This document shows, piece by piece, positions 42,510 through 49,711 of a DNA stretch of 64,000 nt. Each line of letters opens with the position of its first letter. The first letter of the stretch is position 1. Where the stretch lies: assembly GCF_013376105.1 (NCBI RefSeq), contig NZ_JAAMFM010000001.1, forward strand, positions 124,001 to 188,000, written 5' to 3'. The position numbers were made by a program, and so were the translations under genes. This DNA comes from Arthrobacter wenxiniae (lineage in GTDB: Bacteria > Actinomycetota > Actinomycetes > Actinomycetales > Micrococcaceae). Below the pieces are notes generated by a model. It was not told where the DNA came from. It did no database searches and worked only from the letters and a program-made list of their open reading frames with translations.

Positions 42510-44837
42510 CTATTTGCCCAGCTTTTTTTGCAGCCACTTCACGGCGGCGTCGGACTGGCTGCCAAACGGGTCCTCATTCACCACGTATGTCCAGGTCGAG
42601 GATGCCCGGCGGAGGCCGGCGGCCAGCAGGTCCGCCGTGCCGTCCGCCACTTCCAGCGCATCAAAGGATTCCCGGGCGCTGTCCGCGGCCCGGTCCAGGA
42701 ACCCCTCGAAGGCGAAAATCGTTTCCCGCCGGTATTCATCCAGCGGATTTTGCCGGCCCAGGGCGCGCAGGTGGATCGCGGCACGCTGCTCGGACAGCAG
42801 GGCCAGGTGGTCGCTCCAGTGCGCGTCCAGCTGGAACAGCATCACCTGGCGGCAGATCCCCGCCAGCTCCGCCGCGCCCAGGGCGGCACGAAGTCTCCCG
42901 ACGTGTTCCGAGCCCTCAAACGGTTCCAGCGCCGCGGCATCGACCGTGAGGACCCGGTCCCTTTCGGCCAGCACCACGCGGCGCTGGTGGGCAATGAGCT
43001 CGTTGTACTTCCAGGAGATCTCCTGGGTGGTGAAGCGCTCCTGCTCGGCAAGGCGCTGGGTTCGGTCCAGCAGGCGGGACACGCCCGCCCGGGTGACGCG
43101 TCCGGCGTCGTCCGCGTCCCCGGCGAGGGAACTGCCCAGTTCCAGGCCCTGGATCTCCTGGCCGTTGGCCGCCGGGTCCTCAATGCTGGAGAAGGTGACG
43201 CTGGCGCCGGGATCGCCCTGGCGGCCGGCGCGGCCGCGGAGCTGCGCGTCCAGGCGGGGCGAGTGGAACCGGCCGGCGATCACCACCAGCAGCCCGCCCA
43301 GCGCGGCGACCTCGCCGTGGGCGGCCGCGCCGGCGCCCTTGCCGCCGAGGATTATGTCGGTGCCGCGGCCCGCCATCTGCGTGGAGACCGTCACGGCGTG
43401 CTTGCGCCCCGCCTCCGCAATGATGCCTGCCTCCAGGGCGTCGTTGCGCGCGTTGAGGACCTGGCAGTCCACGTTCCTGGCCGTAAGGTCCGCGGCGAAC
43501 CGCTCCGAGGCGGCGACGCTGTGCGTGCCGAGGAGCACCGGGCGCCCCACGGCGTGCGCCGCCACCACCGCCTCGACCACGGCGGCGTCGCGCTGCGCGG
43601 CGGTGGCGTAGATGCGCTCGGGCAGGTCCTCGCGGATGCAGGGCCTGTGCGGCGGAATGCGGCCGGCGTCGAGTTCGTAGTGCGTGCGCAGGTATTCGGC
43701 GACGGCCGAGGCGGTGCCGCTCATGCCGGTCACGGTGGCGAACGACCTGACCAGGTCGCGCACCAGCAGCTGGTCCAGGACCTCGCCCTGTTCAGTCTTC
43801 AGCAGGCCTTCCTTGGTCTCGACGGCCGCCTGCAGCCCGTCCGGCCAGCGCTGCGTGTGCGCCACCCGGCCGCGGGAATCCGAGACTATCTGGGCCCGGC
43901 CGGCCCGCACAATGTAGTCGACGTCCCGCTGCAGGAGGACCTGGGCATGCAGGGCCACATTGAGGGAGGAGAACAGCGGCGTGCCTGCCGCCGAGTACAG
44001 CTCGACGCCGGGCCACCTCCCCTCCGCCTTGTTGATCCCGGCGTCGGTCAGCGAGACGTTCCGCCGGTCCGGTTCCACGGTGTAGTCGGTCTCCGGGTCC
44101 AGCCCGCGCACAAAATCCGCCACGTCCACGCCCTGCAGCTCGCTGCGGGCCCGGCCCGCCAGGACCAGCGGCACCACGGCCTCGTCCACCAGCACGGAGT
44201 CGATTTCATCCACGATGCACACGTCAAAGGGCCGGAGGACGGCCTGGTCCGGCCCGGTGCGGCTGCGGTCCCGCAGGACGTCAAAGCCGAGTTCATTGAC
44301 GGAGACGTAGACAACATCTGCCTGGTAGGCGTGTTTCTTCTCCTCCGGGGTGCTGCCGGCCGTCACGGAGGCGGAGGTGATGCCCAGTGCCCCATAGTAG
44401 GGGCCCATCCAGGCGGCGTCCCGTTGGGCGAGGTAGTCGTTGACCGTCAGGACGTGGACGCGACGGCCGTTGAGGGCGTGCGCGCCGGCCGCCAGGGCGC
44501 CCACCAGGGTCTTGCCCTCCCCGGTGTCCAGCTCCACCACGGTCCCCTGGAGCATGGTGGCGGCCGCGAGCAGCTGGGTGTCGAACGGGACCATGGCCAG
44601 TGCACGGCCGGCCAGGACGCGGGCGCTGAACAGGTAGTCCTCGAGGCGCTGGCCGGTCCACGGCTTATTGTCCGCCGCCAGTTGCTTGATGGTTTTCCGG
44701 GCCTGGGCCAGGCCTTCCCGTTCGGTGGCTTCATCCGCCCGCTTCGCCGCCCGGCCCACTTCCCCGGTGAAGATGGCCGTGTCCGCGACGCCGGGGGTGT
44801 TGAACAGCCAGTTCTTGAATTGCTGGGGGAAACGCAC
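42510..44837 (-). CDS. secA2: Accessory preprotein translocase ATPase SecA2
   Basis: A 775-aa SecA paralogue that drives export of a subset of proteins. Motif I is DTGEGKT (residues 104-110), the DEAD-type box is VDEIDSV, the preprotein-binding domain lies around residues 220-350, and motif VI-like GRGTDIILGG and RGRAGRQGDPG are intact. It is shorter than housekeeping SecA (about 900 aa) and lacks the C-terminal zinc tail, which fits SecA2. It starts with GTG after GAGG. No typical SecA2 substrate gene is next to it. Confidence 0.88.
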   Translation of the reverse strand: MRFPQQFKNWLFNTPGVADTAIFTGEVGRAAKRADEATEREGLAQARKTIKQLAADNKPWTGQRLEDYLFSARVLAGRALAMVPFDTQLLAAATMLQGTVVELDTGEGKTLVGALAAGAHALNGRRVHVLTVNDYLAQRDAAWMGPYYGALGITSASVTAGSTPEEKKHAYQADVVYVSVNELGFDVLRDRSRTGPDQAVLRPFDVCIVDEIDSVLVDEAVVPLVLAGRARSELQGVDVADFVRGLDPETDYTVEPDRRNVSLTDAGINKAEGRWPGVELYSAAGTPLFSSLNVALHAQVLLQRDVDYIVRAGRAQIVSDSRGRVAHTQRWPDGLQAAVETKEGLLKTEQGEVLDQLLVRDLVRSFATVTGMSGTASAVAEYLRTHYELDAGRIPPHRPCIREDLPERIYATAAQRDAAVVEAVVAAHAVGRPVLLGTHSVAASERFAADLTARNVDCQVLNARNDALEAGIIAEAGRKHAVTVSTQMAGRGTDIILGGKGAGAAAHGEVAALGGLLVVIAGRFHSPRLDAQLRGRAGRQGDPGASVTFSSIEDPAANGQEIQGLELGSSLAGDADDAGRVTRAGVSRLLDRTQRLAEQERFTTQEISWKYNELIAHQRRVVLAERDRVLTVDAAALEPFEGSEHVGRLRAALGAAELAGICRQVMLFQLDAHWSDHLALLSEQRAAIHLRALGRQNPLDEYRRETIFAFEGFLDRAADSARESFDALEVADGTADLLAAGLRRASSTWTYVVNEDPFGSQSDAAVKWLQKKLGK

Positions 44838-47037: not shown

Positions 47038-47472
47038 ATGGCCTATTCACTGCAGATCGTCGTCGATGCCCTCAAGCCCCACGAACTTGCCGACTGGTGG
47101 GCGGAAACGCTGGGCTGGGCCGTGGAGGCCTCGGACGAGGCATTCATCAGGTCCATGGTGGACCAGGGATTCGCGTCCGCGGACCAGACAATGCGGCACC
47201 ACGGCGTGCTGGTCTGGAAGGACGGCCAGGCGGTCACGGCCGGCCCGGACGCGGGCAGCGGCCAGCCGCGGATCCTGTTCCAGTCCGGTGACCGGGAAAA
47301 GGCGGACAAGAACCGCATCCACTGGGACGTGCGGGTCGGCGGCGAGGACAAGGCGGAGGTGCGCCAAAGGCTGGAAGCCCGCGGCGCCACCTTCCTGTGG
47401 GAGGCCAGCCAGGGTCCGCACGCTTGGTTCACCATGGCCGACCCCGAAGGCAACGAGTTCTGCATCAGCTGA
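47038..47472 (+). CDS. VOC-superfamily protein (glyoxalase/bleomycin-resistance type)
   Basis: A 144-aa protein of the vicinal oxygen chelate fold. It starts MAYSLQIVVDALKPHELADW and ends with the metal-site-like DPEGNEFCIS. HWDVRVGGEDK provides another conserved histidine. Single-gene VOC proteins of this length bind metals, antibiotics or small electrophiles; the ligand is not evident. The ATG follows the intergenic palindrome. Confidence 0.83.
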   Translation: MAYSLQIVVDALKPHELADWWAETLGWAVEASDEAFIRSMVDQGFASADQTMRHHGVLVWKDGQAVTAGPDAGSGQPRILFQSGDREKADKNRIHWDVRVGGEDKAEVRQRLEARGATFLWEASQGPHAWFTMADPEGNEFCIS

Positions 47473-47490
47473 TGCCGCCCGTGTGAACCT

Positions 47491-47522
47491 GTGTGAATCT
47501 TATGAATTCATAAGATTCACAC
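47491..47522. promoter_or_regulatory. Perfect 32-bp palindrome upstream of the orphan ATPase
   Basis: GTGTGAATCTTATGAA is followed directly by its exact reverse complement, giving a 32-bp palindrome with no mismatch. GTGTGAA occurs once more just before it (47481-47487), and AATTCATAAG recurs just after it (47524-47533). The block is A/T-rich in a G/C-rich genome. With the ATPase start 14-29 nt downstream, it is most likely an operator at that gene's promoter. No T-tract follows, so a terminator is less likely. Confidence 0.85.
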
Positions 47523-47550
47523 AAATTCATAAGCGGTGTGGGATGGCAAG

Positions 47551-48651
47551 ATGGACAATCCATTCAAACCATCGTTCGGCCGCACCCCGCCAGAACTGCT
47601 GGACCGCACCGATGTACTCGACGAGTTCGAATACGGGCTCAGTCTTCGCTCGGGCGTCCTCGGGCTGCTCACGATCATCACGGGTGCCCGTGGCGTCGGC
47701 AAGACCGTCATGCTCAATGAGGCCCAGGACCTGGCGCGCGAACAAGGATGGGCCGTCATCTCCGACACGTCCACAGATGGTTTTTTGGCGCGGATCGCAG
47801 ATGCCATGAGCGCGATCAATGACGAACTGGGGGCGGCCCCGCCCGCCAGGAAGATCACAGCGTTTGTCGCCGCCGGATTCGGGGTCACCACACGGCTGGC
47901 CCCTGAGAGACAGGTGGAATTTCGAAGCCTCGGCGGCCAGCTTCTTCGCCGACTGGATGAAAACAAGACCGGGCTGCTGATCACGCTTGATGAAATTCAG
48001 GACGCAAACCGTGGCGAGCTGCTTCACCTCGCTGCGGTCATTCAGCACTTTGTCCGGGACGGCCTGCCGATCGGCTTTGTGTGTGCCGGCCTCCCGTCAG
48101 CAGTCTCCGACTTGCCTAATGAGGGTGTGGCGACCTTTTTGCGGCGGGCTGACAAAATCGACCTTCATTCAGTCGAAATCGCGGACGTGGAAAGTTCGTA
48201 CATCAAATTGTTCGCCTCGGCCGGGCTCACCCTGCCCGGCAACATGGCATCCAAGGCCGCCATCGCCACGACCGGTTATCCATTTCTGGTCCAGCTGATC
48301 GGGTACTTCTTGTGGCGTGAGGCAGAAAAGACTGGCGGAATGTTGGGGGACGATGCTGTGGACCGAGCCATTGCGGCAGGCCTTCAACGAAACATTCGAC
48401 TGGTCCTGGAGCCGGCCCTGGCCAACACCCGCCGCCGCGACATGGACTACCTGCGGGCCATGGCCGTCGACGATGGAGTTTCCGGAACGGGCAACGTTGC
48501 CGAGCGCATGGGGGCAAAATTGACGCTGGCGGCCAACTACCGGGCAAGGCTCATAGATGCCGGCCCGATCGAAGCTGCCGGGCATGGCGAGGTGCGATTC
48601 TCCATCCCCGGTCCGCGGCAGTACCTCCGATCGACACCGCCGCGAGATTGA
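47551..48651 (+). CDS. Orphan P-loop ATPase with C-terminal winged-helix-like domain
   Basis: A 366-aa AAA/STAND-type ATPase. Walker A is GARGVGKT (residues 45-52), Walker B is LLITLDEIQD (D146, E147), and a sensor-like GFVCAGLP follows. The C-terminal 60 residues (YLRAMAVDDG, then NVAERMG and YRARLIDAGPIE) look like the winged helix of Orc1/Cdc6-like ATPases. The start is ATG 47551 or GTG 47536; neither has a strong ribosome site. It has no partner gene, and the perfect palindrome just upstream suggests it may bind DNA and control itself. Its function is unknown. Confidence 0.78.
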   Translation: MDNPFKPSFGRTPPELLDRTDVLDEFEYGLSLRSGVLGLLTIITGARGVGKTVMLNEAQDLAREQGWAVISDTSTDGFLARIADAMSAINDELGAAPPARKITAFVAAGFGVTTRLAPERQVEFRSLGGQLLRRLDENKTGLLITLDEIQDANRGELLHLAAVIQHFVRDGLPIGFVCAGLPSAVSDLPNEGVATFLRRADKIDLHSVEIADVESSYIKLFASAGLTLPGNMASKAAIATTGYPFLVQLIGYFLWREAEKTGGMLGDDAVDRAIAAGLQRNIRLVLEPALANTRRRDMDYLRAMAVDDGVSGTGNVAERMGAKLTLAANYRARLIDAGPIEAAGHGEVRFSIPGPRQYLRSTPPRD

Positions 48652-48733: not shown

Positions 48734-49711
48734 GTGAGGGTGAGCGCAGACAAACTCCCCGAGCAGGTTTCCGACATCTTTGACCCCGCCCGCTGGCGCG
48801 TGGTGGAAGGCTTCGATTTCCAGGACATGACCTACCACCGCCAGGTGGAACGGGTTTCGACAGGCTCAACCACCGAAGCAAGGGACCTGCCCACGGTCCG
48901 CATCGCCTTCAACCGCCCGGAGGTGCGCAACGCCTTCCGCCCCGGCACCGTCGACGAGCTGTACCGCGCCATGGACCACGCCCGCATGACCCCGGATGTG
49001 GCCACCGTGCTGCTGACCGGCAACGGACCCTCCCCCAAGGACGGCGGCCATTCCTTCTGCTCCGGCGGGGACCAGCGCATCCGCGGCCGCGACGGCTACC
49101 GATACACCGTACAAGATACCGGCGGCGAGTCGAAGGAGACCATCGACCCCGCCCGGGCCGGCCGCCTCCACATCCTGGAGGTCCAGCGGCTCATGCGCAC
49201 CATGCCCAAGGTGGTCATCGCCGTCGTCAACGGCTGGGCCGCCGGGGGCGGACACTCCCTCCACGTCGTCTCCGACCTGACCATCGCCTCCCGCCAGCAC
49301 GGGAAGTTCAAGCAGACGGACGCCACGGTGGGCTCGTTCGACGCCGGCTACGGTTCCGCGCTGCTGGCCCGCCAGATCGGCCAAAAGGCTGCCCGGGAGA
49401 TCTTCTTCCTGGCCCGCGAATATTCCGCTGACGACATGGTCCGCATGGGCGCCGTCAACGAGGCCGTGGACCACGCGGAGCTGGAAAACGTGGCCCTGGA
49501 ATATGCTGCCGACATTGCCCGGCAGTCCCCGCAGGCGATCCGGATGCTCAAGTTTGCCTTCAACCTGGCCGACGACGGACTGGCCGGACAGCAGGTCTTT
49601 GCCGGCGAGGCCACCCGCCTGGCCTACATGACGGACGAGGCCGTGGAGGGCAAGGAAGCCTTCCTGGAAAAGCGCGACCCCGACTGGTCCAACTTCCCGT
49701 ACTACTTCTAA
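48734..49711 (+). CDS. menB: 1,4-dihydroxy-2-naphthoyl-CoA synthase (MenB)
   Basis: A 325-aa crotonase-fold enzyme that closes the second ring of the naphthoquinone. MenB signatures are intact: RIAFNRPEVRNAFRP, CSGGDQRIRG, NGWAAGGGHSLHVV and TDATVGSFDAGYGS. Residues 40-53 (RVSTGSTTEARDLP) are extra compared with mycobacterial MenB as I recall it, where only about three residues lie between HR.V and TVR. The insert is encoded by the REP-like element. The start is GTG 48734; GTG 48740 is an alternative. Confidence 0.95.
   Translation: MRVSADKLPEQVSDIFDPARWRVVEGFDFQDMTYHRQVERVSTGSTTEARDLPTVRIAFNRPEVRNAFRPGTVDELYRAMDHARMTPDVATVLLTGNGPSPKDGGHSFCSGGDQRIRGRDGYRYTVQDTGGESKETIDPARAGRLHILEVQRLMRTMPKVVIAVVNGWAAGGGHSLHVVSDLTIASRQHGKFKQTDATVGSFDAGYGSALLARQIGQKAAREIFFLAREYSADDMVRMGAVNEAVDHAELENVALEYAADIARQSPQAIRMLKFAFNLADDGLAGQQVFAGEATRLAYMTDEAVEGKEAFLEKRDPDWSNFPYYF
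48853..48875. repeat. REP-like element inside menB
   Basis: GGTTTCGACAGGCTCAACCA followed by CCG lies within the menB coding region. It matches the core of the element in menD (TCGACAGGCTCGAACACCG). The insertion adds about 12 codons near the N-terminus and keeps the frame. It falls in the loop between the first strand pair of the crotonase fold. Confidence 0.7.

Follow-up and report, generated by a model that had tools for sequence, protein, structure and literature searches.

A gene for an ATPase of Arthrobacter wenxiniae was found to be preceded by an array of short repeated units, and comparison with its homologues makes it likely that the product, by its predicted structure a bare STAND/Orc-type ATPase, reads 9–10 bp units at its own promoter; several subunits would then line up on the array and repress the gene in a nucleotide-switched manner. 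The initial annotation had proposed an ATP-dependent regulator binding a palindrome at its own promoter. The idea of a regulator reading its own promoter now has strong comparative support from the arrays before the homologues, from a match between residue 329 of the protein and base 6 of the unit, and from a held-out test of that match; the palindromic form, in contrast, is not conserved.

The ATPase gene and its candidate operator

The window is the whole stretch of 64,000 nucleotides that was analysed. Its ORF list gives a single ORF, from GTG 47536 to 48651, between the gene at 47038–47472, which we take to be of VOC type, and a gene starting at 48734, presumably menB-like (both names were read from the sequence). 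ATG 47551 is the likelier start, since the homologues begin with an M-x-NPF-like sequence. The features referred to below are as follows.

47490–47523, no strand: perfect 34-bp palindrome, core of the candidate operator, TGTGTGAATCTTATGAATTCATAAGATTCACACA, no mismatch
47482–47531, no strand: candidate operator, two head-to-head arrays of three TTCAYA units each (from the sequence, the genome pattern search and homologues L006/L054)
47551–48651, plus strand: AAA_16/STAND-like ATPase, 366 aa from ATG 47551 or 371 aa from GTG 47536
47683–47706, plus strand: Walker A, GARGVGKT; G44, G47, G49 and K50 (counting D at 47554 as residue 1) do not vary across the 64 homologues aligned
47989–47994, plus strand: acidic pair DE of Walker B; D146 and E147 (same numbering as for Walker A) are likewise constant in the alignment of 64 homologues
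48433–48600, plus strand: predicted winged-helix domain, model residues 294–349 (AlphaFold2, mean pLDDT per ten residues 91–96)
48535–48537, plus strand: residue 329 in the recognition helix, N here and K in others (counted from M at 47551), which matches unit base 6

The palindrome proved slightly longer than the 32 bp first claimed, extending over 34 bp without mismatch, and sits within 23-bp arms (91%, 47484–47529). It starts 17 bp past the stop codon of the upstream gene and ends 12 nt 5′ of GTG 47536 and 27 nt 5′ of ATG 47551. By arithmetic at about 66% GC, a perfect palindrome of this length is expected about 2e-5 times per 64 kb by chance. With up to 3 mismatches allowed, its 14-bp centre matched once in the window, any match at all being seen in 5 of 100 shuffles; with up to 2 allowed, it matched at a single place in the 4.33-Mb genome.

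The extra half sites noted earlier on both sides of the palindrome were borne out, as each arm carries three TTCAYA units and both arms were found by pattern. The plus-strand units are located at 47507–47512 (TTCATA), 47516–47521 (TTCACA) and 47526–47531 (TTCATA), and the minus-strand units, listed outward, at 47501–47506 (TTCATA), 47492–47497 (TTCACA) and 47482–47487 (TTCACA); in both arms the steps outward from the centre are 9 and then 10 bp. A pattern search for TTCAY triples in the 4.33-Mb genome found the two arms of the candidate operator only. In the closest homologues, L006 and L054 (79–80%), the palindrome is present but imperfect, and the similarity of their upstream regions to the window peaks over the array. 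Two paralogues in the same genome (58% identity) each have a different array: genome searches found CTCAY triples at the gene of one paralogue and at one CTCAC microsatellite, and nowhere else, and TTACAC triples at the gene of the other only. Comparison supports the view that the array belongs to its own ATPase gene. The ATPase itself appears to be under purifying selection, with dN 0.123 and dS 1.004 against L054.

Pfam AAA_16 (PF13191) matched the protein with 40.9 bits against a gathering cutoff of 32.6 (E 3.9e-10), and matched all 64 members at E ≤1e-2. The AlphaFold2 model (mean pLDDT 84.7) consists of a nucleotide-binding domain, a helical lid and a C-terminal winged helix, in agreement with the winged-helix-like C-terminus proposed initially; winged-helix profiles matched few of the 64 members (MarR_2 7, IclR 5, HTH_24 4). 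The best fold match was PABY2304 (2qen; Z 23.2, rmsd 3.7, 312 aligned), followed by SSO1545 (2fna; Z 22.6, rmsd 3.4, 306 aligned). Both are archaeal AAA+/STAND-like ATPases, and their three-domain fold of nucleotide-binding domain, helical lid and winged helix is found over the full length of the predicted model, although their identity to the window protein is 16–17%. To our knowledge, neither a function nor an operator array has been reported for either. Next after SSO1545 came the archaeal Orc1/Cdc6 proteins, likewise AAA plus winged helix, with ORC2 (1w5t; Z 20.4, rmsd 4.5, 330 aligned), 2qby (Z 17.8, rmsd 7.1, 313 aligned) and 2v1u (Z 16.2, rmsd 6.6, 325 aligned). The NB-ARC–winged-helix arrangement of plant NLR and apoptosome cores (NRC4, RPP1, CED-4) was matched as well (9cc9, Z 20.1, rmsd 4.5, 312 aligned; 7crc, Z 18.3, rmsd 4.4, 295 aligned; 4m9s, Z 17.1, rmsd 4.5, 291 aligned).

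The model ends after one winged helix, with no sensor domain or LuxR/SdiA-type helix-turn-helix, and none is in the Pfam list. On this predicted structure the ATPase is a bare STAND/Orc-type core in which no effector or sensor domain was found. The best match among the PADLOC anti-phage families (E 0.0016) covered 53 residues around the P-loop only, and searches of defence, PHROGs and PDB sequences gave P-loop-level matches only, except for phrog_6841 (E 3.1e-12), whose function is not annotated. Matches in the viral fold library were mostly to general AAA proteins.

Arrays and distribution of the homologues

The homologue set comprised 85 loci, 80 chosen among the matches listed in family genomes plus five, with some near-identical pairs among them. 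Just 5′ of most homologue starts there is a row of units 9–10 bp apart, with a spacing that frequently alternates 9, 10, 9, 10. The unit varies by group (TTCACA, TACACA, CTCACA, TTCACC, TTAACC, TTACAC, TCTAAA, TATAAA, TTTAAA, TGCAAA and more). Since units are found on either strand across the homologues, DNA rather than RNA is the probable target. In several homologues the last unit abuts a Shine-Dalgarno-like AGGAG.

The rows were scored as chains of similar 6-mers spaced 8–11 bp within 95 bp upstream, and compared with shuffles and with 501 control upstreams, which were those of mechanical ORFs >200 aa in the same loci. Chains of at least four units were present in 44 of 85 homologues, whereas shuffles gave 7 of 850 and control upstreams 18 of 501; the mean chain was 3.75 units in homologues, 1.89 in shuffles and 2.10 in controls. 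At least three units were found in 65 of the 66 homologues with at least 37% identity and in 6 of the 19 below 37%; chains of that length arose in 86 of the 850 shuffles and in 99 of the 501 controls. A chain of two units at most was seen in 14 of the 85 homologues, 13 of which belong to the 19 below 37% identity.

Most homologues with at least 37% identity have direct arrays, so the palindrome is not the conserved element and cannot be kept as the shared feature; judged from these upstream sequences, what is conserved is the repeated unit. The initial annotation had held that upstream regions of homologues lacking a palindrome would refute its proposal. Taken literally, such regions are what was found, but the core idea survives. 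Inverted repeats at a shuffle p ≤0.05, counted after near-identical upstreams were dropped, occurred before 17 of 57 distant relatives (mostly of the NPYxPGAG type), before 5 of the 42 near homologues and before 3 of the 22 at middling distance; 40 of the 57 distant upstreams had no inverted repeat at p 0.05.

Clear inverted repeats were seen 5′ of the start in the distant homologues L189, L190, L176, L177, L128 and L131, which suggests that the palindromic form occurs in that branch too. The upstream regions of L172 and L174, from another class of the phylum, have a 19-bp period with two differing half units, as if alternating. The 13-bp repeat GGGTTGGCATCCA occurs about six times, almost without change, immediately ahead of the distant homologue L192. 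In L164, from a Rhodococcus qingshengii plasmid, the start is preceded not by the 9–10 bp array but by a repeat of about 20 bp, AGCAATGAAACGACTAGTA, present twice.

Searches found homologues in Arthrobacter and other Micrococcaceae. They were present in 10 of 23 genomes of the genus, the window's own included, and in 128 of the 295 genomes sampled from the family, with several copies in some genomes and absence from others. In the phylum sample 48 of 296 genomes had homologues at E ≤1e-20, and 100 of 72,556 plasmid records carried them. Among the matches listed, the plasmid homologues were mostly annotated as 'ATP-binding protein', 'AAA family ATPase' or 'hypothetical protein'. Four plasmid records (L160, L162, L163 and L216) had toxin-antitoxin-like neighbours (AbiEii, HipA, DUF6088, RES), with no family common to the four.

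Distant homologues were also seen at 39 loci on contigs of viral collections (L225–L263), many of which are perhaps prophages or mis-sorted host DNA. The phage collection gave one match only, which was set aside: it lies on a faecal contig without annotation, among ORFs that look bacterial. TTCAC arrays in viral contigs were also discarded, with 7 stretches against 4 for a reversed control pattern, not clearly above control; no ATPase profile match was found in the DNA fetched around the 7 stretches.

The window's locus was read in 14 loci, comprising relatives and the window itself: eight had no ATPase or array on reading, four were uninformative, one was the window and one was genome G006. 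In the eight gene-less loci the upstream gene is followed by menB within 23–324 bp. In G006 (L134, about 1935–2075) the array is kept with few changes, and so are the first three codons, the ATPase being lost just after (ATGGACAAT). This is a natural array-without-gene locus, useful for titration.

Neighbours were compared in 79 of the 85 loci, those longer than 4,900 bases, which form 47 locus groups by a rough count in which loci are joined by any shared neighbour. No gene family was found in more than 7 of the 79 loci, and those that recurred lay at scattered distances, so that the description of the ATPase as an orphan holds, without a recurrent partner gene. Elsewhere in the window, on the minus strand, a 775-aa ORF (42510–44837) may encode an accessory SecA translocase, to judge by its motifs.

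Residue 329 and base 6 of the unit

All pairs of 366 residues and 10 unit positions (3660 pairs) were scanned in 49 of the 85 homologues (at least 50% identity). Residue 329 with base 6 ranked second and residue 330 (Y or Q) with base 3 ranked third, and both residues lie in the recognition helix. The signal of residue 330 comes from a single clade (L053, L067), and Q was absent from the held-out proteins. The first rank was taken by residue 127 with unit position −1; this residue is outside the winged helix.

The prediction that K329 goes with C at base 6, and N329 with A, was fixed before 24 further homologues were looked at, 8 of which (L195, L197, L200, L206, L208, L209, L214 and L215) are at least 90% identical to a training protein. 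K or N was borne by 23 of the 24, each of them on the side expected: the 12 K proteins all have C in 75–100% of their units, and the 11 N proteins all have C in 0–50%. For 8 of the 11 N proteins, most units have A at base 6; for L195, L206 and L216, half of them or fewer do. L217 (V329, 42% identity) is outside the prediction. In L202, K goes with TTCACC, whereas its nearest training relative (71% identity) has N with CTCACA. The direction from K to C makes sense because lysine facing guanine is a common contact.

Over 72 homologues (the 49 of the scan and 23 of the 24 held out, again with near-identical pairs), having K329 or not agreed with having mostly C at base 6 or not in 72 of 72, with the cut of 0.6 for 'mostly C' chosen after the held-out test. 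Phi was 1.00 at residue 329 alone, and 0.78 in the next best column. On a tree built from residues 1–290, without the winged helix, each trait changes 4 times, in parallel; 2 of these 4 independent switches rest on starred branches, and a sign test on them cannot reach 0.05.

Mantel tests of unit against protein distance gave rho 0.50–0.52, about equal in the three main domains. With the nucleotide-binding domain partialled out, rho was 0.143 for the winged helix, 0.146 for the recognition helix and 0.116 for the lid, and over 407 middling-distance pairs it was 0.538 for the lid, 0.391 for the recognition helix and 0.297 for the whole winged helix. The winged helix is not singled out, so these tests do not localise the reader domain. 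We nevertheless regard it as very probable, on the sequence comparisons taken together, that the winged helix reads the array units. Autoregulation would then follow.

Proposed mechanism and alternative explanations

In the proposed mechanism, the C-terminal winged helix would bind the 9–10 bp units over the promoter and ribosome-binding region of its own gene, and several subunits may occupy the array side by side, roughly one for each unit and DNA turn. The array-bound ATPase would repress its own gene and so set its own level. Repression is favoured over activation because the last unit abuts the Shine-Dalgarno-like AGGAG in several homologues. The nucleotide state may alter the assembly and thereby release or strengthen repression, ATP acting as the putative switch.

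Archaeal orc1/cdc6 genes adjoin their origins, and often adjoin repeats bound by their winged helix. A replication-type initiator with the array as its iteron origin would fit the Orc1/Cdc6 fold, the iteron-like array adjoining the gene, the occurrence of homologues on plasmids (100 of 72,556 records) and the ParA or ParB genes near three plasmid copies examined. It is nonetheless very unlikely, as several copies occur in some genomes and none in others, the approximately 60 bp from the upstream stop codon to the array end leave little room for a separate unwinding region, and the TIGR02928 orc1/cdc6 model gave 10.8 bits against a cutoff of 181.3. In failing this family model, in its 9–10 bp units and in its patchy copy number the window protein differs from Orc1/Cdc6. 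Array and ATPase could instead be a minimal mobile unit for transposition or recombination, with a TniB/TnsC-like protein at its own end. Array and ORF are found in differing contexts, relatives lack the gene at the window's locus, the TniB model picks up 6 of 64 members at E ≤0.01, and the fold comparison includes TnsC (7ufi, Z 14.5, rmsd 4.3, 250 aligned). We consider this unlikely, however, given that the repeat search reported no 3′-side repeat matching the array, no recurrent transposase or integrase partner was among the families listed for the 79 loci, and TniB is absent from the Pfam matches of the window protein at E ≤1.

The array could also be one site of a regulon through which the ATPase controls other genes, in the way that another operon is controlled by the ATPase regulator IniR, which has a domain like SSO1545 (PMC5760070). 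This too is improbable, with no further TTCAY triple array in the genome, where triples were searched, and no recurrent neighbour family in the 79 loci. The palindrome might have nothing to do with the ATPase and only form a hairpin or terminator in the transcript of the upstream gene, as its start 17 bp after the stop codon of that gene would suggest. Such a role is extremely improbable: the array goes with the ATPase in other contexts, most homologues with at least 37% identity show direct repeats and no hairpin, and the eight relatives in which the upstream gene stands beside menB without the ATPase have no array on reading.

Self-repression by the ATPase from its own array is the reading that we prefer. 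Autoregulation through direct repeats is known in general, and the winged helix of NLR/STAND proteins is usually regarded as a switch. Unlike the NLRs, the window protein has no effector or repeat domain, and its winged helix seems to be base-reading; the NB-ARC of Rx1 has been reported to bind and bend DNA (PMC4599002). IniR of mycobacteria (PMC5760070) is a signal-transduction ATPase regulator of 818 aa that regulates iniBAC, with an N-terminal domain modelled on SSO1545, a MalT-like domain and an SdiA-like DNA-binding domain. IniR resembles the window protein in being an actinobacterial regulator with the same ATPase type. The window protein is shorter, at 366 aa; no sensor domain was found in it, and it apparently targets its own promoter. 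No function was found for these ATPase homologues among the papers listed in the literature searches, and a family of bare STAND/Orc-type ATPases with private diverging arrays and a residue-to-base match was not described there, subscription papers and preprints being outside the scope of the search.

Our best guess is that the gene is a self-dosed sentinel or a selfish accessory gene travelling with its operator between chromosomes and plasmids, because of its single-gene form, its patchiness and its plasmid copies. A further-reaching reading, which we hold to be rather unlikely, is a family of single-gene ATPases with private, evolving 9–10 bp addresses, decoded by the winged helix, at their own promoters only, each assembling as a DNA-templated oligomer, in which foreign copies of the array would titrate the protein, alter its level and trigger an output. 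If this private-address reading were true, the family would be a one-gene self/non-self or copy-number switch, and an incoming plasmid or element with a sister gene might be the trigger.

The family looks like a widespread, apparently undescribed self-controlling switch, for which the residue-to-base match gives a first molecular handle, namely a DNA site together with a specificity residue. If true, a STAND-type winged helix would be reading sequence, which would link NLR-like cores with Orc1/Cdc6.
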